A stretch of DNA of 64,000 nucleotides from Salinarimonadaceae bacterium (GTDB taxonomy: Bacteria > Pseudomonadota > Alphaproteobacteria > Rhizobiales > Beijerinckiaceae): positions 1-64,000 of the forward strand of contig REDO01000131.1 of the NCBI GenBank assembly GCA_007693435.1, read 5' to 3'. Of this stretch, positions 1 through 25,765 are shown piece by piece. Position numbers and translations under genes: made by a program. Numbering within the stretch: the stretch's first letter is position 1; each line of letters opens with the position of its first letter. The notes below the pieces were generated by a model. It was not told the DNA's origin and searched no databases. It was given only the letters and a program-made list of their open reading frames with translations.

Positions 1-447
1 ACGCAGATGAGCTGGGCCGACGCCCAGCCCGCGCTCACCACCGGCGCCGTCGACGGGCAGGAGAACCCGCTGACGATCTACCGGGTGCTCAACATGCACG
101 AGCTCGGCCAGACCTACGTCACCCAATGGCGCTACCTTGCCGATCCGCTGATCTTCGCGGTGAACCGGGATGTCTGGAACTCGTTCACGGCCGAGGACCA
201 GGAGATCGTGCGTCAGGCCGCCGTGGAAGCCGGCGCGCATGGCGTCGAGGTCGCCCGCACGGGTCTGATGGACGATGACACGAGCCTTGTCGACGAGATC
301 CGCGGCTTCGGCGTCGAGGTGACCACGCTGACGGACGAAGAGCGTCAGGCCTTCGTCGATGCGACGCGTCCGGTCTACGAGGCGTGGCGCGACCGCATCG
401 GCGCGGACTTCGTCCGTCTCGCCGAAGAGTCCATCGCCAACCGCTGA
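1..447 (+). CDS. TRAP transporter solute-binding protein, C-terminal part (5' end outside window)
   Basis: The frame is open to the left edge, so this is the last ~148 residues of a DctP-family periplasmic receptor. The segment around TTGAVDGQENP, followed by an IFAVNRDVW strand and a charged helical C-terminus, is typical of DctP receptors, whose usual length is ~330 residues. The receptor binds an organic acid in the periplasm and hands it to the DctQ/DctM permeases encoded next. The ligand cannot be read from the fragment. A strong hairpin separates it from dctQ, as is common where the receptor must be made in excess over the permease. Confidence 0.9.
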   Translation, partial: TQMSWADAQPALTTGAVDGQENPLTIYRVLNMHELGQTYVTQWRYLADPLIFAVNRDVWNSFTAEDQEIVRQAAVEAGAHGVEVARTGLMDDDTSLVDEIRGFGVEVTTLTDEERQAFVDATRPVYEAWRDRIGADFVRLAEESIANR

Positions 448-471
448 TCGGACCCGTAACGGCCTCCAGAA

Positions 472-506
472 CGCCGCGCCCTTCTCGAAAGGGGAAGGGC
501 GCGGCG
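472..506 (+). terminator. Intergenic hairpin between TRAP receptor and permease genes
   Basis: A perfect 12-bp inverted repeat (cgccgcgccctt / aagggcgcggcg), extendable by G-U and G-C pairs, encloses a short loop. No U-tract follows. It lies 25 bp after the receptor stop and 50 bp before dctQ. It therefore probably acts as an mRNA-stabilising or partial-termination element that lowers permease expression relative to the receptor. The structure is seen; the role is inferred. Confidence 0.6.
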
Positions 507-555
507 CTCCCGAATTGCTTGCCCCCGACATGCCGCCTCAGGGAGTCTCCGCAAG

Positions 556-1095
556 ATGAGCGATGAACGCGTCCCGGCCCAACCTCTGCACGGCAATGAC
601 ACGGGAGCCGACCATGTCGTGGTTCCCGTGAAGATCGAGGAGGCGCTCGGCGCCGCCGCGATGGCCGCGATCTGTCTGATCTCCTTCGGCAACGTCGTGG
701 CGCGCTATCTGACGAACATATCCTTCGCCTTCACCGAAGAGTTCTCGGTCTTCCTGCTCGCGTTCATGACCTTCGTCGGCGCTTCGGCGGCCTTCGCGAC
801 GAACGAGCATATCCGTATCACCTTTCTCGTCGAGCGCCTGAACCCGACATGGCGCTTCGTGTGCGAAATGATCGCCCTTCTCGCGACGACCGCCATGTTC
901 TCGCTGATCGTCTATTACGGCGGGCGGGTCACCTACGACGAATGGTACTGGCGCGAGACCTCGCCGGGTCTCGGCAATCCGGTCTGGATCTACACGATCT
1001 GGCTTCCCCTTCTGTCGGTCGCGATCATCCTGCGCGTGCTGGGACGCGCATGGGCGAAGTCGATCCGTCCGCGCCTGCGCGCCAGTCGCGGCTGA
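556..1095 (+). CDS. dctQ: TRAP transporter small permease (DctQ family)
   Basis: A 179-residue membrane protein with four predicted hydrophobic segments (about residues 30-50, 65-85, 105-125 and 145-165), the normal DctQ size and topology. The segment NVVARYLTNISFAFTEEF is the conserved first part of the family. With DctM it forms the Na+-driven permease that accepts solute from the receptor encoded upstream. It is followed 10 bp later by dctM behind a strong GAGGAGG ribosome site, so the two are one operon. The first ~25 residues are polar and poorly conserved in the family. Confidence 0.92.
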   Translation: MSDERVPAQPLHGNDTGADHVVVPVKIEEALGAAAMAAICLISFGNVVARYLTNISFAFTEEFSVFLLAFMTFVGASAAFATNEHIRITFLVERLNPTWRFVCEMIALLATTAMFSLIVYYGGRVTYDEWYWRETSPGLGNPVWIYTIWLPLLSVAIILRVLGRAWAKSIRPRLRASRG

Positions 1096-1105
1096 GGAGG
1101 CGGGA

Positions 1106-2407
1106 ATGATCGACGCCAACCTCGCCCTGCTCGTATCCTTCCTCGCGCTGATGCTGATCGGAACGCCTATCGCCGTCTCGCTAGGCCTCGCCGCCGCCAT
1201 CGGCATCGTCATCGGCCTCGACGTCGTGTCGCTCGGAATGATCGGCACCAACACCTATAACGGCATCGCGAAATATCCGCTGATCGCCATCCCGCTCTTC
1301 ATTCTGACCGGCATGATGTTCGATCGCTCCGGCGTCGCGGCCCGGCTCGTCGGCTTCGCGCAGGCCTGCATCGGGCCGCGCAAGGGCGGGCTGGGTCTCG
1401 TCGCCATCCTCGTGTGCATGATCATGGGCGGCATGTCGGGCTCCGGCCCCGCCGACGCCGCAGCCGTCGCGACTGTGATGCTGCCCTCGATGGTCAAGGC
1501 CGGCTATCCGCGCGCCTTCACGGCGAGCGTCATCGCGGCCTCCGCCTCGACGGCGATCCTCATTCCGCCTTCGATCGCGCTCATCGTCTACGCCGTGCTC
1601 GTGCCGGGCACGGACCTGCGCGCGCTCTTCGCCGCCGGGATGATACCCGGCCTCCTCGTCGGCCTCTCGATCGCCATCCCGACCCTGATCCTCTCGCGCA
1701 AATTCGGCTTCGGCGCGCAGGAATCGCCGGACCGGCCGCCTTTCTGGCCGAGTCTCTGGCGCGCGTTCCCGGGCCTGATGGCGCCGGTGATCATCCTCGG
1801 CGGCCTGCGCAGCGGCCTGTTCACGCCGACCGAAACGGCTGTCGTCGCGGTGTTCTACGGCCTGTTCGTCGGAACCGTGCTCTACCGCACGATGGGCCTG
1901 CGCGACATCTACGAGACGCTCGTCGACAGCGCCAAGATCTCGGGTGTCCTCATGCTCATCATCGCGCTCGCCGGACTCTTCGCCTGGGCCGGCTCAACGA
2001 TGGGGGCGTTTCGCGCGACGACGCAGGCTCTGCTCGCGGTCAGCGAGAATCCCTGGATCATCCTGGCGCTCATCATGGCCGTGCTCCTGCTCGCCGGCAT
2101 GCTGCTCGACGGCGTATCGATCTATCTGATCACGCTGCCGCTGCTCGTGCCGATCGCGCAGGCCTTTGAATGGTCCTTCGTATGGTTCGGCGTGGTCATG
2201 GCCATGAACATCGCCATCGGACAGGTCTCGCCGCCCATTGCGGTCAACCTCATGGTGACGGCGAAGATCGCCGGGATACCCATCGAGAGCACGTTCCGAT
2301 GGGTGCTCTGGCTGCTCGCCTCGATGGCGGTCGCGATGGGCCTCGTCATCGCCTTCCCCGAAATCGCGCTCTGGCTTCCCCGGACGCTCGGTTACCGCAT
2401 CACGTAA
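1106..2407 (+). CDS. dctM: TRAP transporter large permease (DctM family)
   Basis: 433 residues, almost entirely hydrophobic with 11-12 predicted transmembrane segments, the usual DctM length. Family landmarks are GGMSGSGPADAAAV near residue 110, ILIPPSIALIVYAV near 155, FTPTETAVVAVFYG near 240 and QVSPPIAVNL near 375. It is the ion-coupled transport subunit of the TRAP system in the inner membrane. A very good ribosome site (gaggaggcggga) precedes the ATG. The downstream ThDP enzyme starts 14 bp after the stop, so uptake and metabolism of the same compound are probably co-transcribed. Confidence 0.95.
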   Translation: MIDANLALLVSFLALMLIGTPIAVSLGLAAAIGIVIGLDVVSLGMIGTNTYNGIAKYPLIAIPLFILTGMMFDRSGVAARLVGFAQACIGPRKGGLGLVAILVCMIMGGMSGSGPADAAAVATVMLPSMVKAGYPRAFTASVIAASASTAILIPPSIALIVYAVLVPGTDLRALFAAGMIPGLLVGLSIAIPTLILSRKFGFGAQESPDRPPFWPSLWRAFPGLMAPVIILGGLRSGLFTPTETAVVAVFYGLFVGTVLYRTMGLRDIYETLVDSAKISGVLMLIIALAGLFAWAGSTMGAFRATTQALLAVSENPWIILALIMAVLLLAGMLLDGVSIYLITLPLLVPIAQAFEWSFVWFGVVMAMNIAIGQVSPPIAVNLMVTAKIAGIPIESTFRWVLWLLASMAVAMGLVIAFPEIALWLPRTLGYRIT

Positions 2408-8893: not shown

Positions 8894-10003
8894 TCAGGAG
8901 CGGCCTCGGGTGCGTGCCATGAAGTTGTCGAAGGCCAGTTCATTGACGGGCCACCAGAGCAGCGCGTCGTTGCGGTAGTCCTTCATCGACTCGTAGGCGC
9001 GTTTGAAGGTCGCGTTTTCGGCCGACATTTCATCGTAGAGTTCGTTGGCCGCCTTCAGCGACGCCTCCATGACCGTTTGCGGGAAATAACGCAGCTCCGC
9101 CCCCCCGGCGACGAGACGGCGCAAAGCCGGGGCGTTCACCGCGTCGTATTTCGCCAGCATCCAGTTATTGGCCGCTTCCGCCGCATGGAACAGGATGCTC
9201 CGGTAATGCGCGGGCAATTCGTTCCATTTCTCCTCGTTGATGATGGCGTGCAGCATCGCCCCGCCTTCCCAGAAACCGGGCGCGTAGTAGTACCTCGCGA
9301 CCCGGTGGAGGCCGAGCTTCTCGTCGTCGTAGGGGCCGACGAACTCCACCGCGTCGATCGTTCCGCGCTCCAGCGCCGGGTAGATGTCGGCCGGGGCGAT
9401 CTGCTGTGGGATGACGCCGAGTTTCTCGAGGACTTGCCCGCCGATCCCGCCGATGCGGAATTTCAGGCCCTGGAGGTCTTCGACGCCCGTAATTTCCCTG
9501 CGGAAGAAGCCGCCCATCTGCGCGCCGGAATTGCCGCAGGCCAGCGAGGTGCAGCCCATCCTGCCCAGCACCTCGTTGATGATTTCCTTGCCTCCGGCGA
9601 AATGCCACCAGGAATGTTGCTGACGGGCGTTGAGCCCGAAAGGCACGCCGGTTCCGAAGGCCAGCGCCGGCTCGCGGCCATAGTAGAAATATGTCGGCGT
9701 ATGGCCCGCCTCGATCGTGCCGTTGGACACGGCTTCGAGCACCTGAAGGCCGCCCACGATCTCGCCGGGCCCGAAGACCTGGATCTGGAAGCGGTTGTCG
9801 GTCGCGTCGGCGACGTATTTCGCGAAGGTCTCCAACGTGCCGAAAATTGTGTCGAGCGTTTTGGGGAAGCTCGATACCATGCGCCAAGCGACGTCCGGCG
9901 CGGATTGCGCGATAGCGGGCGCGGCGAGCGTCGCGCCCGCGGTCGTGCCGGCCGCAGCGAGGCCCGCCGCTTTCAGGAAGTTTCTTCTCTTCAGATTAGT
10001 CAT
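8894..10003 (-). CDS. Orphan TRAP solute-binding protein (TakP-like)
   Basis: 369 residues with a twin-arginine leader (RRNFLKAAG, then a hydrophobic core ending APAIAQS). Family landmarks are MGGFFRREI and the signature [16 protein letters not shown], seen in receptors related to the 2-oxo-acid-binding TakP. The start 10003 is supported by GGAGGTGGG 7 bp upstream; the track ORF adds 27 non-conserved codons. No permease genes are adjacent. It is divergent from fahA and lies next to the hppD operon, so a 2-oxo acid such as 4-hydroxyphenylpyruvate is a reasonable but untested ligand. It is a paralogue of the receptor at 11583. Confidence 0.9.
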   Translation of the reverse strand: MTNLKRRNFLKAAGLAAAGTTAGATLAAPAIAQSAPDVAWRMVSSFPKTLDTIFGTLETFAKYVADATDNRFQIQVFGPGEIVGGLQVLEAVSNGTIEAGHTPTYFYYGREPALAFGTGVPFGLNARQQHSWWHFAGGKEIINEVLGRMGCTSLACGNSGAQMGGFFRREITGVEDLQGLKFRIGGIGGQVLEKLGVIPQQIAPADIYPALERGTIDAVEFVGPYDDEKLGLHRVARYYYAPGFWEGGAMLHAIINEEKWNELPAHYRSILFHAAEAANNWMLAKYDAVNAPALRRLVAGGAELRYFPQTVMEASLKAANELYDEMSAENATFKRAYESMKDYRNDALLWWPVNELAFDNFMARTRGRS

Positions 10004-10071
10004 TGAACCCACCTCCCCGATACAGGCCGTCGATCGCCTCGTCCCAACGCCGCGAAAGGTAATCCAGCACC

Positions 10072-11085
10072 ATGAAGATTGCATCCCTGAAACACGGCCG
10101 CGACGGCAGGCTGGTGGTCGTCTCCAAGGACCTCACTCGTGCGACCGACGCATTCTTCATCGTACCGACGCTGCAGGCCGCGCTCGACGATTGGGACCGC
10201 GTCGCGCCGCGCCTCGAGGATCTCGCGGCGCAGTTGGAGACCGGCTCCGTGCCGAGCTTCCGCTTCCATGAACACGATTGCGCCTCGCCATTGCCGCGCG
10301 CGTATCAGTGGGCCGACGGTTCGGCCTACGTGAACCACGTCGCCCTCGTGCGGCAGGCGCGCGGGGCCGAAATGCCCGAGAGCTTCTGGACCGAACCGCT
10401 GATCTACCAAGGGGGCTCCGACGCCTTCCTCGGGCCGCGCGATCCGGTCCTCATGGCGGATGAGGAATGGGGGATCGATTTCGAGGGGGAGATCGCCGTA
10501 ATCGTCGACGACGTGCCGATGGGCGCCGATCGCGAGGAAGCGGCGGCCGCGATCCGGCTCGTGATGCTCGTCGACGACGTGTCCCTGCGCGGGCTGATCC
10601 CCGGGGAACTCGCCAAGGGGTTCGGGTTCTTCCAGTCGAAGCCCTCCTCGGCCTTCTCGCCGGTCGCCGTGACGCCGGACGAACTCGGCGACGCCTGGGA
10701 CGGCGGACGGCTCCATCTGCCGCTGCTGTCCAGCGTCAACGGCAAGCTCTTCGGTCATCCGAACGCGGGCGTCGACATGACCTTCGACTTCCCCGAGCTG
10801 ATCGTCCACGCCGCGAAGACGCGCCCGCTTTCATCCGGCGCGATCATCGGTTCGGGCACGGTCTCGAACCGCGATCCGGACGGCGGCCCCGGCCGGTCGG
10901 TCGCCGACGGGGGGCTCGGCTATTCGTGCATCGCCGAGCAGCGCACCGTCGAGACGATCAGGGAGGGAGCGCCGAAAACGCCCTTCCTGCGCTTCGGCGA
11001 CGTGGTGCGCATCGAGATGAAGGACGCGCGCGGGCGTTCGATTTTCGGGGCGATCGAGCAGGAGGTTCAGCGTTACACGCGTTGA
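10072..11085 (+). CDS. fahA: Fumarylacetoacetate hydrolase family protein
   Basis: 337 residues. The FAH-fold C-terminal domain has metal-ligand segments WGIDFEGEIAVIVDD and MLVDDVSLRG, with KPSSAFSPVAV and IGSGTVSNRD downstream, matching bacterial fumarylacetoacetases of ~335 residues. The enzyme cleaves fumarylacetoacetate to fumarate and acetoacetate, the last step of tyrosine degradation. It is divergent from the orphan TRAP receptor with 68 bp between starts, so promoters may be shared. A weak ctccc/gggag hairpin at 11123-11136 follows the gene. Other acylpyruvase activities are possible, but hppD and maiA nearby favour this one. Confidence 0.92.
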   Translation: MKIASLKHGRDGRLVVVSKDLTRATDAFFIVPTLQAALDDWDRVAPRLEDLAAQLETGSVPSFRFHEHDCASPLPRAYQWADGSAYVNHVALVRQARGAEMPESFWTEPLIYQGGSDAFLGPRDPVLMADEEWGIDFEGEIAVIVDDVPMGADREEAAAAIRLVMLVDDVSLRGLIPGELAKGFGFFQSKPSSAFSPVAVTPDELGDAWDGGRLHLPLLSSVNGKLFGHPNAGVDMTFDFPELIVHAAKTRPLSSGAIIGSGTVSNRDPDGGPGRSVADGGLGYSCIAEQRTVETIREGAPKTPFLRFGDVVRIEMKDARGRSIFGAIEQEVQRYTR

Positions 11086-11170: not shown

Positions 11171-11572
11171 CTACTCGCTCGACAGCCCGAACCGATCCAC
11201 GACTTCGGGCTGGACGACCTTCGCGTGCAGCGTCAGCAGGATGAGTTGGGCGTCGAGCCCCTCGCCGGCGCCGAGCGCCCGTTCGATCCGGGCCTCGACC
11301 CGCTGGATGAGATCGGGCGGGCTCGTGGCCGAGAGCATCGTGGGGCCGAGCATGCAATAGGCCAGCATTTCGGCCGCCGCCGCATAGGCCTGCGGGGCTG
11401 GCTCGGCGCCCACCGCGTGGTCCTTGAGCAGGTTGACGACAGTGAGTTTCACGGCTTCGGACACGAGCTTCGGATGCAGGTCCGCGGCCCGCAGGGCCGC
11501 GTCGAGCTGCTTGAGGTCGTGCGAGCGTCCGAAGACGCCCATGAAGCCGAACGAGGAGGGTGAACGCGCCAT
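11171..11572 (-). CDS. Conserved hypothetical protein at the end of the thiamine operon
   Basis: 133 residues, no signal peptide or membrane segment, helical throughout. The opening FGFMGVFGRSHDLKQLDAAL and the following VKLTVVNLLKD look like a conserved alphaproteobacterial family of unknown function; I know no assigned role. It begins only 10 bp after the stop of the thiD-linked TRAP receptor gene on the same strand, so it is probably the last gene of that transcript. Whether it has any part in thiamine metabolism is unknown. Confidence 0.7.
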   Translation of the reverse strand: MARSPSSFGFMGVFGRSHDLKQLDAALRAADLHPKLVSEAVKLTVVNLLKDHAVGAEPAPQAYAAAAEMLAYCMLGPTMLSATSPPDLIQRVEARIERALGAGEGLDAQLILLTLHAKVVQPEVVDRFGLSSE

Positions 11573-11582
11573 ACGCCCGATC

Positions 11583-12665
11583 TTAAGTCCTCAGGAGCGA
11601 ACGCGCCATATCCGAGGACAGGGCGGACCAGTGCCGGAAGGCCGCAGTCGCCTCGCGATAGGAGGCGACGATGCGCCCGGCGAGCTCGGAGCTGGCCGCG
11701 ATCTCGTCCATCAGCGCGTTCGAGGCCTCCTGCGCGGCGCGCATGACGTCGGCGGGGAAGGCCTCCAGCGACACGTTCCCGGTGCGCATGATGGCGTCGA
11801 GCGCCGTCGCGTTTTGCGCGTGCGCGTCTGCGAGGCCCATCGTGTGCTCGGCGCGCGCCGATTCGCGCACGATGGTCTTCAGATCGTCCGAGAGGCGCGA
11901 CCAGGCGCTTTCCGAGATCAGCAGTTCGCTCGCCCCGTTCGGCTTGTTGAAGCCCGGCGCGTAGTAATGCGCCGCGTGCTGGTGCAAGCCGGTTTCGTAG
12001 TCGGTTGAGGGCGCGAGGAACTCCACCGCGTCGATCGTGCCGCGATCGAGCGAGGTCACGAGATCGCCTGCCGCGATGCTCATCGGCGTCGCGCCGAGCC
12101 GCTCGAACACCTGCGCGCCGATGCCTTGCACCCGGATGCGCAGGCCGCGCAGATCCTCGACGCTTGTGATCCGGCGGCGGAACCAGCCGCCCATGGACGG
12201 GCCGGTGTTGCCCGCCATGAAGGCCCGCACGCCATAGGGCGCGTAAAGCTCGTCCCAGAGCGCCTGCCCGTCGCGCAGCTCGATCCAGGCCTGATGCTCG
12301 ATCGGGCCAAGGCCGAAGGGGACGGTGGTGAAGAAACCGGCGGCCGGATTCTTGCCCTGCCAGTAGAGCGCGGCCGTGTGGCCCATCTCGACGGTTTCGT
12401 TCGACACCGCGTCGAGGATGCCGAGCGGCGCCACGATCTCGTTGGCGGCGAACAAATCGACGCGCATCCGTCCGTCGGCCATCGCGTTGATGCGGTCGAC
12501 GATGCGCTGGGCCGAGACGCCCGGCCCCGCGCGTCCGCGCGGCCAGGACGTCACGAGGCGGAACCAAAGGGGCTCGCCGGTCTGCGCGATCGCGGGAGCG
12601 GTGAGGCCGGAGGCGGCTGCGCCGGAGGCTGCCGCGCCACTCAGAAGAAGACGACGTGAAATCAT
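11583..12665 (-). CDS. TRAP solute-binding protein in a TPP-riboswitch operon, candidate thiamine-precursor receptor
   Basis: 360 residues with a twin-arginine leader (ISRRLLLSG, hydrophobic core, APAIAQT). It has the same landmarks as the receptor at 8894: [33 protein letters not shown] 12665 is chosen because it overlaps the original thiD stop as ATGA; the track start 12677 lies inside thiD. No permease gene is adjacent, so it must share DctQM subunits encoded elsewhere. Its position after thiM-thiE-thiD behind a TPP riboswitch suggests that it captures thiamine, hydroxymethylpyrimidine, hydroxyethylthiazole or a breakdown product. The ligand is inferred from context alone. Confidence 0.88.
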
Positions 12666-13465
12666 TTTGACCACCATGCGTGAAAGTGATGAACGGGACC
12701 GGCGCCATGGCCGATCCGCAACTCGTTGGAAGCTGCGATCGCGGCGCTGACATAGGCTTTTGCAGCCTCGACCGCTTCGCGCAGTCCGAGACCCCGGGCG
12801 AGCCCCGCCGCAATCGCCGAGGAGAGCGTGCAGCCGGTGCCGTGGGTGTTCTTCGTGGCGATGCGTGGGCTCGCGAGGCGTTGGACGCCGTCGGCGTCGA
12901 TCAGGAGATAGACGCTCTCTTAGCCCTCGCCATGGCCGCCTTTTATGAGCACCGCGCGCGGCCCAGTTTCGAGGATGCGCAGACCCTGCGCCAACATCGC
13001 CTCCTCGTCGCGCGCCAATGGCTCGTCGAGGATAGCGGCGGCCTCGGGCAGGTTCGGCGTGACGACGAGCGCGCGCGGGATCAGGAGTTCGCGCAACGCC
13101 TCCACGGCGTCGCCTGCGAGGAGCCGGTCGCCGGAGGCCGCGACCATCACCGGATCGAGGACGATTTTCGCGACGCCGTGGCGGGCGAGCCCGGCGGTGA
13201 CGGCCTCGATCATGGGAACCTGCGAGAGCATGCCGATCTTCACCACGTCCACTGCGAGATCGGAGAACACGCTGTCGATCTGTTGCGCGACGAATTCCGG
13301 CGGCGCGTCGTGGATCGCCTGCACGCCCCGCGTATTCTGCGCGGTGAGCGCCGTGACGACGCTGGCGCCGTAGACGCCGAGCGCCGAGAACGTCTTGAGA
13401 TCGGCCTGAATGCCGGCGCCCCCGCCGGAATCCGAACCTGCGATCGTGACTGCGATGGCCGTCAT
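12662..13465 (-). pseudogene. thiD: Hydroxymethylpyrimidine (phosphate) kinase thiD interrupted by an in-frame TAA
   Basis: The reading frame starts as a normal ThiD (MTAIAVTIAGSDSGGGAGIQ, later DPVMVAASGDRLL and VVTPNLPEA). It meets TAA at 12922-12920 after ...KGGHGEG. The same frame then continues as unmistakable ThiD ([15 protein letters not shown], then [21 protein letters not shown]) to a TGA at 12664. Read through, it would give ~266 residues, the family norm. The stop removes the GTGC anion-hole segment needed for kinase activity. One G-to-T change (GAA to TAA) would explain it. It may be a real lesion, a sequencing error or a recoded codon. The original stop overlaps the next gene by ATGA. 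Confidence 0.9.
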
Positions 13466-13480
13466 TTCATCCCGTCTCCG

Positions 13481-14143
13481 TCAGGCGCCGCGCGCGGCGA
13501 GCGCGCGGTCGATGGCGTCGCGCAAAATGCGCGCGGCTTTTTCGATGTCGTCATGGCCGAAGATCGCGGAGATGACCGCGACGCCGTCGGCGCCCGCGCC
13601 GATGACGGCGGGTATCTCGCGCAAACCGATGCCGGCGATGGCGCCGACGGGCGCGCCCGGCAGCGCCGTTCTGGCGATCGCCTCAATACGCGCCAGCCCG
13701 TCGAGGCCGACCGGCGGATCGGGGTTGTCCTTGCTCGTCGTCGCAAAGACGCCGCCGATGCAGCTGTAGTCGATCGGTTGTCCCTCCAGCGCCCGCGCAT
13801 GGTCCGTCATCTTGAGCGTGAGGCCGATGATGGCGTCGGGGCCGAGCAGGCGGCGCGCGTCCTCGGGCGCGATGTCGTTCTGGCCGAGATGCACGCCGTC
13901 CGCCTCCGCGGCGAGCGCCACGTCGATCCGGTCGTTGATCAGGAGCGACGCGCCCGATCCGGCGATGGCGCGCTTGATGGCGCGCGCGTTGGCGACCAGG
14001 TCGCGCCCCTCCGATTGCTTGTCGCGATACTGGATCACGGTCGCCCCGCCCGCGACGGCGGCTGCGGCGCATTGCGCGAGATCGCGGCCTCGCGTGTCGC
14101 CGGGACCGAGGATGGCGTAGAGGCGGATGTCGACTTGGTTCAT
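13481..14143 (-). CDS. thiE: Thiamine phosphate synthase
   Basis: 220 residues of TIM-barrel ThiE type, the usual length. Signatures are TVIQYRDKQSEGRDL for pyrophosphate and metal binding, LLINDRIDVALAAEADGVHLGQNDI, GLTLKMTDHARAL in place of the more common GxS, YSCIGGVFATTSKDNP and IGLREIPAVIGAGADGVAVISAI. It joins HMP diphosphate and thiazole phosphate to thiamine phosphate. ATG 14143 overlaps the thiM stop (ATGA), and thiD follows after 15 bp, so these genes form one translationally coupled salvage operon under the riboswitch. Confidence 0.96.
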   Translation of the reverse strand: MNQVDIRLYAILGPGDTRGRDLAQCAAAAVAGGATVIQYRDKQSEGRDLVANARAIKRAIAGSGASLLINDRIDVALAAEADGVHLGQNDIAPEDARRLLGPDAIIGLTLKMTDHARALEGQPIDYSCIGGVFATTSKDNPDPPVGLDGLARIEAIARTALPGAPVGAIAGIGLREIPAVIGAGADGVAVISAIFGHDDIEKAARILRDAIDRALAARGA

Positions 14144-14925
14144 GAAATCCTCGCAAGCGAGCGAATGGCGGTCTCGTCGGCGGCGTGGATCGCGTCGAGA
14201 AACGCCGGCTGGAAGGTTCCCGGACCCTGCGCTGCGCCCCCGGCGATCTCGCCCGCAATCCCGAGCCGAAGCAGGGCGGCCGTCGCGGCCTCGAAGGGAT
14301 CGTCCGTCAGCGCGGCGCCGGCGGCGATCAGCGCGGTGCCGGCGCAGCCCATCGCCGTGACCCGGGCCATGAGCGGATGGCCGTTCTCGATGCGAGCGAC
14401 GCGGGCGCCGTCAGTGATGAAATCGACGGGGCCTGTGAGAGCGACGACGCAGCCCCAGGCGCGGGAGCGGGCCATGACTGTCTCCTCGTCGGCTGGAGCG
14501 TCGGCGAGCGCGACGAATTCGGCGGCGTTGCAGCGCAGGATCGCCGGCCCGTCGGCGAGACGCGCGCGCGCCGCGGCGAGGCGGGGAGGGGAGCGGTCCA
14601 CGAAAACGGGATCGAGCACGAAGGGCCGCCCCGCCGCTTTCGCCGCAGGGATGGCGCGCGCGATGCCTGCGCGCCGCTCGCGGTCGAGCGTGCCGAGATT
14701 GACGAGCAGCGCGTCGGCCCGCGTCGTGAAGGCCTCGACCTCCTCCTCGGCGTAGGAGAGAGAAGGCGTTGCGCCCGCCGCGAGCAGAAGATTGGCCGTA
14801 AAGACCTGCGCCGCGAAATTCGTGATGGCGTGGACGCGCGGCGCGCGCTCCGCCACGCGCCGCATCAGGTCGATGCAGGCGTCGACTTGCGGATTCGCGA
14901 AGATCTGGCCTTGGCGGTGATTCAT
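14140..14925 (-). CDS. thiM: Hydroxyethylthiazole kinase
   Basis: 261 residues, ribokinase-like. The catalytic cysteine segment is VTAMGCAGTALIAAG. Also visible are HAITNFAAQVFTANLLLAAGATPS at the N-terminus, NLGTLDRERR, and VLDPVFVDRS. It phosphorylates 4-methyl-5-hydroxyethylthiazole in the salvage branch of thiamine synthesis. It is the first gene behind the TPP riboswitch. Its ribosome site GGAGGG lies inside the conserved 3' part of the aptamer, 7 bp before ATG, which points to control of translation initiation by TPP. Confidence 0.96.
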   Translation of the reverse strand: MNHRQGQIFANPQVDACIDLMRRVAERAPRVHAITNFAAQVFTANLLLAAGATPSLSYAEEEVEAFTTRADALLVNLGTLDRERRAGIARAIPAAKAAGRPFVLDPVFVDRSPPRLAAARARLADGPAILRCNAAEFVALADAPADEETVMARSRAWGCVVALTGPVDFITDGARVARIENGHPLMARVTAMGCAGTALIAAGAALTDDPFEAATAALLRLGIAGEIAGGAAQGPGTFQPAFLDAIHAADETAIRSLARIS

Positions 14926-14930
14926 CTCTC

Positions 14931-15006
14931 ATCCCTCCGCCGGCATGACCCGGATCAGGTTCGATGGGTTGACGCCAAGCGCCTCTCAGCCCGAACGGGC
15001 ACCCCA
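14931..15006 (-). promoter_or_regulatory. TPP riboswitch (THI element)
   Basis: On the minus strand the sequence contains the diagnostic blocks in order: ggggtgcc, gggctgagagg, ACCTGATCCGGGTCATGCC and ggcggaggga, spaced as in the Rfam TPP aptamer. These build the pyrimidine-sensing and pyrophosphate-sensing helices. The last block includes the thiM ribosome site, so TPP binding should hide it and shut down the thiM-thiE-thiD-TRAP receptor unit. No intrinsic terminator follows, which supports translational control. Confidence 0.95.
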
Positions 15007-15028
15007 AGGAGATTGATTACATGACGGA

Positions 15029-15057
15029 TAATTAGGCGCCGGCGCGGCCGGACGCAA
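15029..15057 (-). promoter_or_regulatory. Promoter of the thiamine operon
   Basis: Minus-strand TTGCGT (15057-15052), a 17-bp spacer and TAATTA (15034-15029) form a housekeeping-type promoter. Transcription would start near 15022, about 15 bp before the riboswitch. Confidence 0.6.
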
Positions 15058-15167: not shown

Positions 15168-15488
15168 ATGAGCACGACGAGCCCGAACGCCCGCGCCCTG
15201 GCCGCGCTCGGCCATGACGCCCGCCTGTCGATCTTCCGCCTGTTGGTCCGGGCGGGGGACGAGGGGCTTCGGGTCGGCGATATCGGCGAGCATCTGGCCC
15301 TCGCGCCCTCGACGCTCGCCCATCATCTGTCCGCGCTCGTCGATGCGGGACTGGTGGTGCAGGAGAAGCGGGGGCGTGAGGTCTTCAATCGCGTGGATTA
15401 TCCGCAAATGCGCCGTGTCCTGAACTTTCTGACCTCGGAATGCTGCGCCGGAGTGGGGTTGCAGACATCGGACGCGGCGGCGAACTGA
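15168..15488 (+). CDS. arsR: ArsR-family transcriptional repressor
   Basis: 106 residues, a single winged-helix domain (ARLSIFRLLVRAGDEGLRVGDI, then LAPSTLAHHLSALVDAGLV and wing KRGREVFNRV). A vicinal cysteine pair in TSECCAG near the C-terminus is a likely thiol sensor site for arsenite or an organoarsenical; it matches the position of the cysteine pair in several ArsR subclasses. The upstream inverted repeat indicates autoregulation. The ArsP-like permease follows by 47 bp on the same strand. No arsC or arsenite efflux gene is present here. Confidence 0.92.
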   Translation: MSTTSPNARALAALGHDARLSIFRLLVRAGDEGLRVGDIGEHLALAPSTLAHHLSALVDAGLVVQEKRGREVFNRVDYPQMRRVLNFLTSECCAGVGLQTSDAAAN

Positions 15489-15509
15489 GCCCGCTTTTTT
15501 CGGCCCAAA

Positions 15510-15537
15510 ATAACTAGAAATCTGGAGATTTAGTTAT
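15510..15537 (+). promoter_or_regulatory. 28-bp palindrome over the permease translation start, probable ArsR operator
   Basis: The core AAATCT-GG-AGATTT is a perfect inverted repeat, flanked by ATAACTA on the left and TAGTTAT on the right with one extra G in the left arm. The half-site AACTAGAAAT is shared with the operator in front of arsR. The palindrome contains the permease ribosome site (GGAG) and the first two bases of its ATG, so it could act as DNA operator, as mRNA hairpin hiding the ribosome site, or both. Confidence 0.65.
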
Positions 15538-16585
15538 GTCGGAAATAGCCCTCTCACGGCCCGGATTGCTGACCTCGCTCAGACATCTGTGGCGCGACCA
15601 GCGCGTCTGGCTCGCGTCGGCGCTGCTGCTCGGCGTCCTCGCGCTGTTCGATCCCGCGCAGGCGATCGAAAGCGCCGGCTTCGCCGGAGGCGCGCTCCTG
15701 AGGACGGCGCCGTTCCTGATCCTGTCGATCGCCGTCGCCGCTTGGGCCGGGGCGACGGGCGCGGACAACCTGATCGCCCGGGCCTTCACCGGCGCCCCTC
15801 TGCTGATGATCGGACTGGCCGCTCTGGCGGGCGGTCTTTCACCCTTCTGCTCATGCGGGGTGATCCCTTTGATCGCGGCCCTGCTCGCGATGGGCATCCC
15901 GTTATCCGCCGTCATGGCCTTCTGGTTGGCCTCGCCGCTCATGGACCCGTCGATGTTCGTGCTCACGACCGGCGTTCTGGGGCTCGAATTCGCGGTGGCC
16001 AAGACGCTCGCGGCTGTGGGAATAGGCGTGTTCGGCGGCAGCGTGGTCCACCTTCTCGCGCGAGGCGGCGCGCTCTCCGATCCGCTGCGCGAGGGGATCG
16101 GAAACGGCGGGTGCGGCGGCGCGAAGGTGCGAGCGCCGAAGCCGGTCGTCTGGTCCTTTTGGCGCGACGCCGAGCGCCGGGGGAAATTCGCGGGCGCGGC
16201 CTGGAACACAACATTGTTCCTCGCCAAATGGCTGACCCTCGCCTTCCTGCTCGAAAGCCTCATGCTCGCATGGATTCCCGCCGAGGCCGTCACTGCGACC
16301 TTGGGTGGGGCGGGGCTGGCGCCGATCCTGACCGCGACGCTCGTGGGCGTTCCGGCATATCTGAACGGTTACGCCGCCCTGCCTCTGGTCGGCGGGCTGA
16401 TCGGGCAAGGCATGGCGCCGGGGGCGGGCATGGCGTTCCTGATCGCAGGCGGCGTCACGTCGATCCCGGCTGCGATGGCGGTCTGGGCTCTGGCGCGACC
16501 GACGGTCTTCGCGCTCTATGTCGGGCTGTCCCTGTCGGGCGCCTTCACGTCGGGTCTGCTGTTCCAGCTCTGGCAGATATCGTGA
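15536..16585 (+). CDS. ArsP-like permease (DUF318 family)
   Basis: 349 residues with about eight to ten hydrophobic segments. The family signature SPFCSCGVIPLIAALLAMG near residue 105 carries the cysteine pair that in ArsP is implicated in binding trivalent organoarsenicals. A second family block, GVPAYLNGYAALPLVGGL, lies near residue 285. The hydrophilic loop at about 185-205 has a glycine-rich GNGGCGG. Regulation by the adjacent thiol-type ArsR supports an organoarsenical or metalloid efflux role; related family members have other or unknown substrates. Confidence 0.85.
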   Translation: MSEIALSRPGLLTSLRHLWRDQRVWLASALLLGVLALFDPAQAIESAGFAGGALLRTAPFLILSIAVAAWAGATGADNLIARAFTGAPLLMIGLAALAGGLSPFCSCGVIPLIAALLAMGIPLSAVMAFWLASPLMDPSMFVLTTGVLGLEFAVAKTLAAVGIGVFGGSVVHLLARGGALSDPLREGIGNGGCGGAKVRAPKPVVWSFWRDAERRGKFAGAAWNTTLFLAKWLTLAFLLESLMLAWIPAEAVTATLGGAGLAPILTATLVGVPAYLNGYAALPLVGGLIGQGMAPGAGMAFLIAGGVTSIPAAMAVWALARPTVFALYVGLSLSGAFTSGLLFQLWQIS

Positions 16586-24963: not shown

Positions 24964-25704
24964 TCAGACCGCCTCGCCGAGGCGCTGGATCGTCGTCCGC
25001 TGCATCTCGGCAAGGCGCTGTAGGGTGTTGGCGACGCTCGTATAGGCGCGGCTCACATCCATGAGGCGCGTCATCTCAAGGACCGCGTTGACGTTCGAGC
25101 GCTCGATCATCCCGCTTTGAACGCGGGTGGTGTCGAAGGCGGGTATGGGAGCCTCGTCGCTGGCGAAGACGTTGGCGCCCTCGTTGCGCAGGGCCTGCGC
25201 GTTCTCGAACCGAGCGAGGCGCAGCCGTCCGCGATCGCCCTGGTCGGAGGAGATCGTTCCGTCGGCGGCGATCGTCACGCCGTTTTCCTCGGGGTCGAGG
25301 ACGATCGGCCCGCCGTCGCCGAGCACCGGCCACCCGTCGCTCGTGACCAGACGGCCCTCATTGTCGAGCTGGAGGGAGCCGTTGCGGGTGTAGCGCTCGC
25401 CGCCGGGCGTATCCACGACGAGAAAGCCGTCGCCCCGAAGCGCCACGTCGAGCGGGTTGCCCGTCTGCTGCATCGCGCCGGCGCTCAGGTCGAGCGGCGT
25501 TCCCGCGTCGATCACGTAGGAGATGCGACGATCCGGCCGAGGGAATTCCTCGGCGCTCGCGCGCTCCATGAGATATTCGCGAAACAGCGAGGAACGCGCC
25601 TTGAAGCCGTTCGTCGATACGTTGGCCATGTTGTTGGCGATGACGTCCAGCTCACGCGCCAGCGCCACCTGCCGAGACAGGCCGATGAGAAGCGTGTTCT
25701 CCAT
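24964..25704 (-). CDS. flgF: Flagellar proximal rod protein
   Basis: 246 residues. It starts ENTLLIGLSRQVALARELD followed by VIANNMANVSTNGFKA, the rod-protein N-terminal motif. The C-terminal LQRLAEMQRTTIQRLG heptads are also typical. It is the first gene of the flgF-flgG-flgA-flgH operon, divergent from fliL across a 287-bp control region containing a CtrA-type box and a long hairpin in its own leader. Confidence 0.95.
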   Translation of the reverse strand: MENTLLIGLSRQVALARELDVIANNMANVSTNGFKARSSLFREYLMERASAEEFPRPDRRISYVIDAGTPLDLSAGAMQQTGNPLDVALRGDGFLVVDTPGGERYTRNGSLQLDNEGRLVTSDGWPVLGDGGPIVLDPEENGVTIAADGTISSDQGDRGRLRLARFENAQALRNEGANVFASDEAPIPAFDTTRVQSGMIERSNVNAVLEMTRLMDVSRAYTSVANTLQRLAEMQRTTIQRLGEAV

Positions 25705-25734
25705 CAGAGCCGCTCCAGTTCCCTTTATCCCCGC

Positions 25735-25765
25735 CGGAACCTCGGCGCTCCCCAGCGCGGTTCCG
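25735..25765 (-). promoter_or_regulatory. Long hairpin in the presumed flgF 5' leader
   Basis: CGGAACC/GGTTCCG (7 bp) encloses GCGCT-cccc-AGCGC (5 bp) with a 3-nt bulge, about 30 bp upstream of the flgF ATG. It may stabilise or regulate flgF mRNA. Structure seen, role inferred. Confidence 0.5.

Follow-up and report, generated by a model that had tools for sequence, protein, structure and literature searches.

Organization of the receptor operon

The window analyzed here, the whole stretch of 64,000 nucleotides from a Salinarimonadaceae bacterium whose named close relatives are Salinarimonas (Hyphomicrobiales), carries on its minus strand an operon in which a TPP riboswitch is followed by thiM, thiE, thiD, and the gene for a Tat-type DctP receptor of the TRAP transporter family (Table 1). 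The initial annotation, made from the sequence alone, had described this arrangement, and it is borne out by the Rfam and Pfam/NCBIfam matches and by the sequence itself. Both gene junctions that it reported are present as ATGA, one joining thiM to thiE and the other formed by the receptor ATG at 12665 and the thiD TGA; the longest receptor open reading frame begins 12 bases further upstream, at 12677. The promoter proposed at the same time stands only in part, as the string TTGCGT-N17-TAATTA is present, but it is a weak match (3/6 in the −35 element) that passed unreported in the consensus scan.

Table 1. Features of the thi-receptor operon, in window coordinates
Feature	Position	Strand	Basis
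Weak promoter-like match, TTGCGT-N17-TAATTA	15029..15057	-	present in sequence; unreported by consensus scan
TPP riboswitch aptamer, thiM ribosome site in its 3' end	14914..15016	-	Rfam RF00059
thiM, hydroxyethylthiazole kinase	14140..14925	-	PF02110, NF006830 above cut-off
thiE, thiamine phosphate synthase	13481..14143	-	PF02581, TIGR00693 above cut-off
thiD, HMP/HMP-P kinase, in-frame TAA at 12920-12922	12660..13465	-	PF08543/TIGR00097; read-through translation
Tat-type DctP (TRAP) receptor, proposed thiazole/cHET receptor	11583..12665	-	PF03480
133-aa protein 3' of receptor	11171..11572	-	no Pfam/NCBIfam match

The in-frame TAA in thiD, which explains why the initial annotation wrote of an "original thiD stop," falls in a loop where relatives have Pro, Ala, or Ile. 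No other clear thiD is present in the genome, where the second-ranking match is a weak kinase hit of 66 bits. Because the genome is a draft of 206 contigs, the TAA may reflect an error in sequencing, variation between strains, or a genuine mutation. The 133-aa protein has homologues of 71–75% identity in its own genus (G001–G003), the only genus in which it follows the receptor gene, with a weaker copy nearby in G023. Beyond the operon, the plus strand carries an ArsR-type regulator followed by an ArsP_1-type permease (15168–16585), and a flg-Rhizobiales RNA match on the minus strand (25659–25764) lies barely over its gathering score (56 vs. 55 bits).

Control by the TPP riboswitch

The riboswitch aptamer scores 76.4 bits (E 2.7e-13) in the Rfam scan, and its 3'-most bases, GGCGGAGGGATGAGAG, directly abut the thiM ATG, so that the ribosome site lies inside the aptamer, as had been claimed. 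Judged from this placement, control is probably exerted at translation. An Rfam-level TPP riboswitch is found upstream, in the same direction, in 17 of the 19 first relatives. A second model, built from the riboswitch sequences of these relatives, detected one upstream in 68 of 73 further thi-linked loci, the remaining five being cut by contig ends, and in none of seven loci of unlinked homologues. Among loci from named genomes the count is 67 of 78, and most of the others begin at a contig end no more than 3 kb from the receptor. With a riboswitch upstream and the same direction of transcription, the receptor gene counts as part of the TPP regulon. In three loci (L281, L286, and L290) 60–90 bases separate the riboswitch from the receptor ATG that follows it, and no thi gene is within reach, which identifies the receptor itself as a target of TPP control.

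Other TPP riboswitches were seen in the course of the survey. A second one in the source genome (L072 9679–12344, contig C183) precedes genes for an NMT1/ThiY-like receptor and an ABC system, and in three loci an EamA-type permease gene lies directly upstream of a TPP riboswitch (L057 12868–13800, L059 5775–6800, and L063 5885–6847).

Conservation of the linkage to thiamine genes

Across 60 relatives, the receptor homologues with identities of 44% or more, found in 19 genomes, are without exception neighbors of thiM, thiE, or thiD, while the homologues of lower identity whose neighborhoods were fetched do not adjoin thi genes. A profile of 20 rows, comprising the proteins of these 19 relatives and that of the window, was used to search 398 genomes of the order and separated 79 genomes at 504 bits or more from eight at 461–490 bits and the rest at 449 bits or less. 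After 80 more loci had been fetched, all those at 504 bits or more proved to be thi-linked, together with three of seven intermediate ones that were checked, so that all 82 receptors of the subfamily in the order survey adjoin thi genes. A scan of 84,980 named genomes returned 377 relatives; among the best 80 of these, 76 adjoin thi genes, and three of the other four lie directly behind a TPP riboswitch.

The linkage, which the initial annotation had reported between thiD and dctP, is clearly conserved: it holds in no fewer than 18 families of this order and also in another one, Sneathiellales. Its versions include TPP-thiM-thiE-thiD-receptor, TPP-thiM-thiD-receptor, TPP-thiM-receptor (the only one in Sneathiella), TPP-thiC-receptor (in Beijerinckiaceae MAGs and others), and TPP-thiC-thiM-thiE-thiD-receptor. 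In most loci thiD is the immediate neighbor of the receptor, and thiM is its usual partner. Chance linkage was considered, given the many DctP genes in such genomes (20 in the source genome), and was rejected because this subfamily alone is linked, and the link is present in each sampled genome that carries it. A conserved neighbor of 600 aa (c11), examined as a possible fused DctQM permease, was assigned by Pfam to ThiC.

A tree built from 118 proteins sets the other TakP-type receptors apart as a group (SH-aLRT 100). The rest of the tree consists of thi-linked receptors, save four descendants that are unlinked and a single, very long branch that is unreliable. This single grouping with few unlinked descendants suggests that the subfamily most likely arose once, with occasional loss of the linkage. 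Of the four unlinked descendants, three come from one genus, g119 (L180, L181, and L183); they derive from the thi-linked group and are no longer beside thi genes, and their genomes retain ThiG.

Structure and binding pocket of the receptor

The receptor matches PF03480 with 143.6 bits against a curated cut-off of 23.4, and a twin-arginine motif, read as ISRRLLL in the protein from the window, is present in the N-terminal region of all 93 thi-linked receptors. An AlphaFold (AF2) model with a pLDDT of 86.7 found its best PDB matches in TakP-type keto-acid receptors (7ug8, 4yic, 4pet, 5cm6, and 2hzk). These proteins, namely TakP of Rhodobacter sphaeroides (2hzk/2hzl), 7ug8, 4yic/4yzz, 4pet, and 5cm6, share the DctP fold and subfamily of the receptor, at about 31–36% structure-based identity and TM-scores of at least 0.9 by target length. 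The structure 4yic may hold picolinate.

The ligand site of TakP was mapped onto the receptors from its published description (PMC1839085). The arginine that binds the carboxylate, Arg182 (Arg177 in TakP), is present in 93/93 thi-linked receptors and in 25/25 other rows. Of the TakP cation ligands Gln156, Glu214, and Glu240, only Glu214 is invariant across the thi-linked clade; the receptor from the window has Ser161, Glu219, and Lys245 at these positions and so departs from the TakP-type set. At the position of Glu240, 49 of the 93 proteins have Lys and 44 have Glu; that of Gln156 is variable, and the two are partly coupled, with Gln-Glu in 38 and Ser-Lys in 33. With cation ligands that change in this way, a single fixed binding mode across the clade is not evident from the alignment. 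The clade does have invariant residues of its own in or near the pocket, since Pro52, Asn247, and Gly248 occur in all 93 members; relative to TakP, these correspond to the changes Ile47 to Pro, Gly242 to Asn, and Pro243 to Gly, to residues that are in the minority among other receptors. The receptor further differs from TakP in the replacement of Tyr99 by Phe or Leu, in the Lys at the Glu240 position in about half of the members, in its setting behind a TPP riboswitch among thi genes, and in having no adjacent QM genes, while the equivalents of the carboxylate arginine and Glu214 are retained.

Thiazole and pyrimidine synthesis in receptor genomes

The thiazole synthase ThiG is absent from 18 of 20 receptor genomes compared with 10 of 40 genomes without the receptor (p 1.7e-6). 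Over the order, where the sampled genomes are mostly >90% complete, ThiG is absent from 69/82 receptor genomes vs. 137/316 others (Fisher p 1.3e-11) and, counted by genus, from 29/37 receptor genera vs. 34/105 others (p 1.9e-6), tests in which relatedness is allowed for only roughly. Every receptor genome is without ThiG in 14 of 18 families. Thirteen of the 82 receptor genomes retain it, making the association a strong tendency rather than a rule. Thi4 was considered as an alternative source of thiazole and found in one genus only: it is also absent from 75 of the 78 ThiG-less receptor genomes, and the three that have it all belong to genus g55. In this genus, which has the receptor too, a bacterial Thi4-type gene lies directly behind a TPP riboswitch (G057:C16:97738–98874, minus strand).

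The pyrimidine synthase ThiC, by comparison, occurs in half of the receptor genomes examined (10 of 20) and shows no association with the receptor (p 0.28). Neither ThiG nor ThiC was found in the source genome. The absence of ThiG, together with thiM as the usual partner and a distribution of ThiC that is unbiased, points to the thiazole rather than to the pyrimidine or thiamine. On the simplest reading, the pyrimidine would be supplied by ThiC or an ABC system, and the thiazole would enter by the TRAP receptor and be used through ThiM.

The permease

The thi-linked loci examined have no DctQM gene next to the receptor, as the initial annotation had noted for the window, and a search for DctM in about 100 loci gave only matches that were distant or beside unlinked homologues. 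The source genome has about 24 DctM genes, of which the nearest in the window (at about 1130–2365) accompanies another DctP. That DctP is cut by the window start and precedes the DctM in a separate TRAP system (1–2365, plus strand). A second TakP-type DctP, again with no adjacent DctM, is encoded at 8894–10084 on the minus strand, divergent from a fumarylacetoacetase-type hydrolase (10072–11085, plus strand). The nearest unlinked relatives of the receptor (L184–L186) adjoin a TakM-like permease, and three small receptor genomes (G057, G195, and G424) have only three or four DctM genes each, one of them TakM-like. These two observations make it fairly probable that the receptor works with a TakQM-type permease from another locus, which a paralogous receptor would use as well. 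The data agree with the earlier proposal that the DctQM subunits are supplied by genes elsewhere in the genome.

Proposed ligand and alternatives

The receptor is predicted to be the periplasmic part of a TRAP importer that takes up the thiazole moiety of vitamin B1, with 5-(2-hydroxyethyl)-4-methylthiazole-2-carboxylate (cHET) as its most likely substrate, a reading to which we assign a probability of about 0.6. The initial annotation had left the ligand as thiamine, HMP, thiazole, or a breakdown product. The survey of ThiG, ThiC, and Thi4 and the thiM partner narrow this list to the thiazole moiety, which is likely to be the ligand, and the invariant arginine favors cHET within it, a choice that is held with somewhat less assurance. 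This arginine acts as a carboxylate filter in TRAP receptors (PMC4646407), and cHET is the carboxylate among the thiazole vitamers listed in PMC10881298. Use of cHET in Ostreococcus needs ThiM, sub-picomolar cHET suffices for an E. coli thiG mutant, and high-affinity cHET transport has been reported as being of "unknown sequence identity" (PMC5899164). From the arginine, the carboxylate character of cHET, and the need for ThiM, we infer that cHET is the favored vitamer. Against this reading count the receptor genomes that keep ThiG, the Thi4 of genus g55, the changing cation ligands within the clade, the missing co-encoded permease, and, in the source genome, the interrupted thiD.

The neutral alcohol HET, a thiamine breakdown product, is the classical substrate of ThiM, and the usual thiM partner and the usual absence of ThiG speak for it; it is nonetheless an improbable ligand, because the carboxylate-selecting arginine is invariant and because E. 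coli needs roughly a million times more HET than cHET, with HET entry thought to occur by diffusion or low-affinity routes (PMC5899164). Less probable again is that the receptor still binds a keto acid of the pyruvate type, as TakP does, with TPP control imposed for metabolic reasons. Its closest solved relatives are keto-acid receptors, and 38 of 93 members retain both Gln156 and Glu240 of TakP, but the clade has its own invariant Pro52, Asn247, and Gly248 along with altered pocket walls, 49 of 93 members have exchanged Glu240 for Lys, and the import of a keto acid would leave the thiM link and the absence of ThiG unexplained.

Uptake of the pyrimidine precursor, HMP or similar, is suggested by the adjacent gene in most loci, thiD, which encodes the HMP kinase. 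It is very unlikely, given that half of the examined receptor genomes make HMP by ThiC with no association, that thiC-receptor operons are common, that another TPP-controlled operon of the source genome encodes a ThiY-like ABC system, and that HMP is not an acid. Thiamine itself, or an oxidized (carboxylated) thiamine product, would suit the TPP control that is well established as typical of thiamine importers such as ThiBPQ, but this is just as unlikely, as the receptor is tied to genes for salvage and synthesis of the two halves and to the absence of one half only, and thiamine carries a positive charge, while TRAP receptors are selective for carboxylates.

In the proposed scheme, scarcity of TPP would cause the riboswitch to free the thiM ribosome site and allow translation of the operon. 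The receptor, exported by Tat, would catch the thiazole carboxylate through the invariant Arg182 and hand it to the shared TakQM-type permease. The imported thiazole would then be phosphorylated by ThiM and joined by ThiE to HMP-PP, itself supplied by ThiC or, in the source genome, from HMP imported by ThiYXZ and passed through ThiD.

Relation to known systems and implications

In the open-access literature, no description of a TRAP system for a thiamine vitamer was found, in agreement with the initial annotation, which knew of no TRAP receptor for thiamine or its precursors. A functional parallel is ThiW, for which thiazole uptake under riboswitch control has been proposed and which is described as a "predicted HET-P transporter" (PMC6429828). 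ThiW is an unrelated type of transporter, whereas the present protein is a TRAP receptor of alphaproteobacteria. ThiBPQ and ThiXYZ are likewise TPP-controlled systems for vitamer uptake, but they are ABC importers for thiamine or pyrimidine and have their own permease. What is new in the DctP receptor described here is its regulon and, probably, its ligand; it is not a new class of transporter.

Taken with its TPP riboswitches, its thi neighbors, and hosts that mostly lack thiazole synthesis, the genomic record makes the receptor family a strong candidate for a cHET/thiazole importer. Carboxythiazole has been described as a key exchanged precursor of vitamin B1 whose uptake route was reported as unknown (PMC5899164), and the family provides a named gene candidate for this uptake. 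There is perhaps an even chance that it represents the first TRAP system known to serve a vitamin precursor, namely a TPP-controlled, ThiM-coupled, high-affinity cHET importer with a shared permease that marks many thiazole-auxotrophic alphaproteobacteria. It would then extend TRAP transport to a vitamin precursor, and its presence in a genome may mark predicted thiazole auxotrophs among the alphaproteobacteria of marine, soil, and plant-associated habitats, such as Roseibium, Pseudovibrio, Microvirga, and Beijerinckiaceae.
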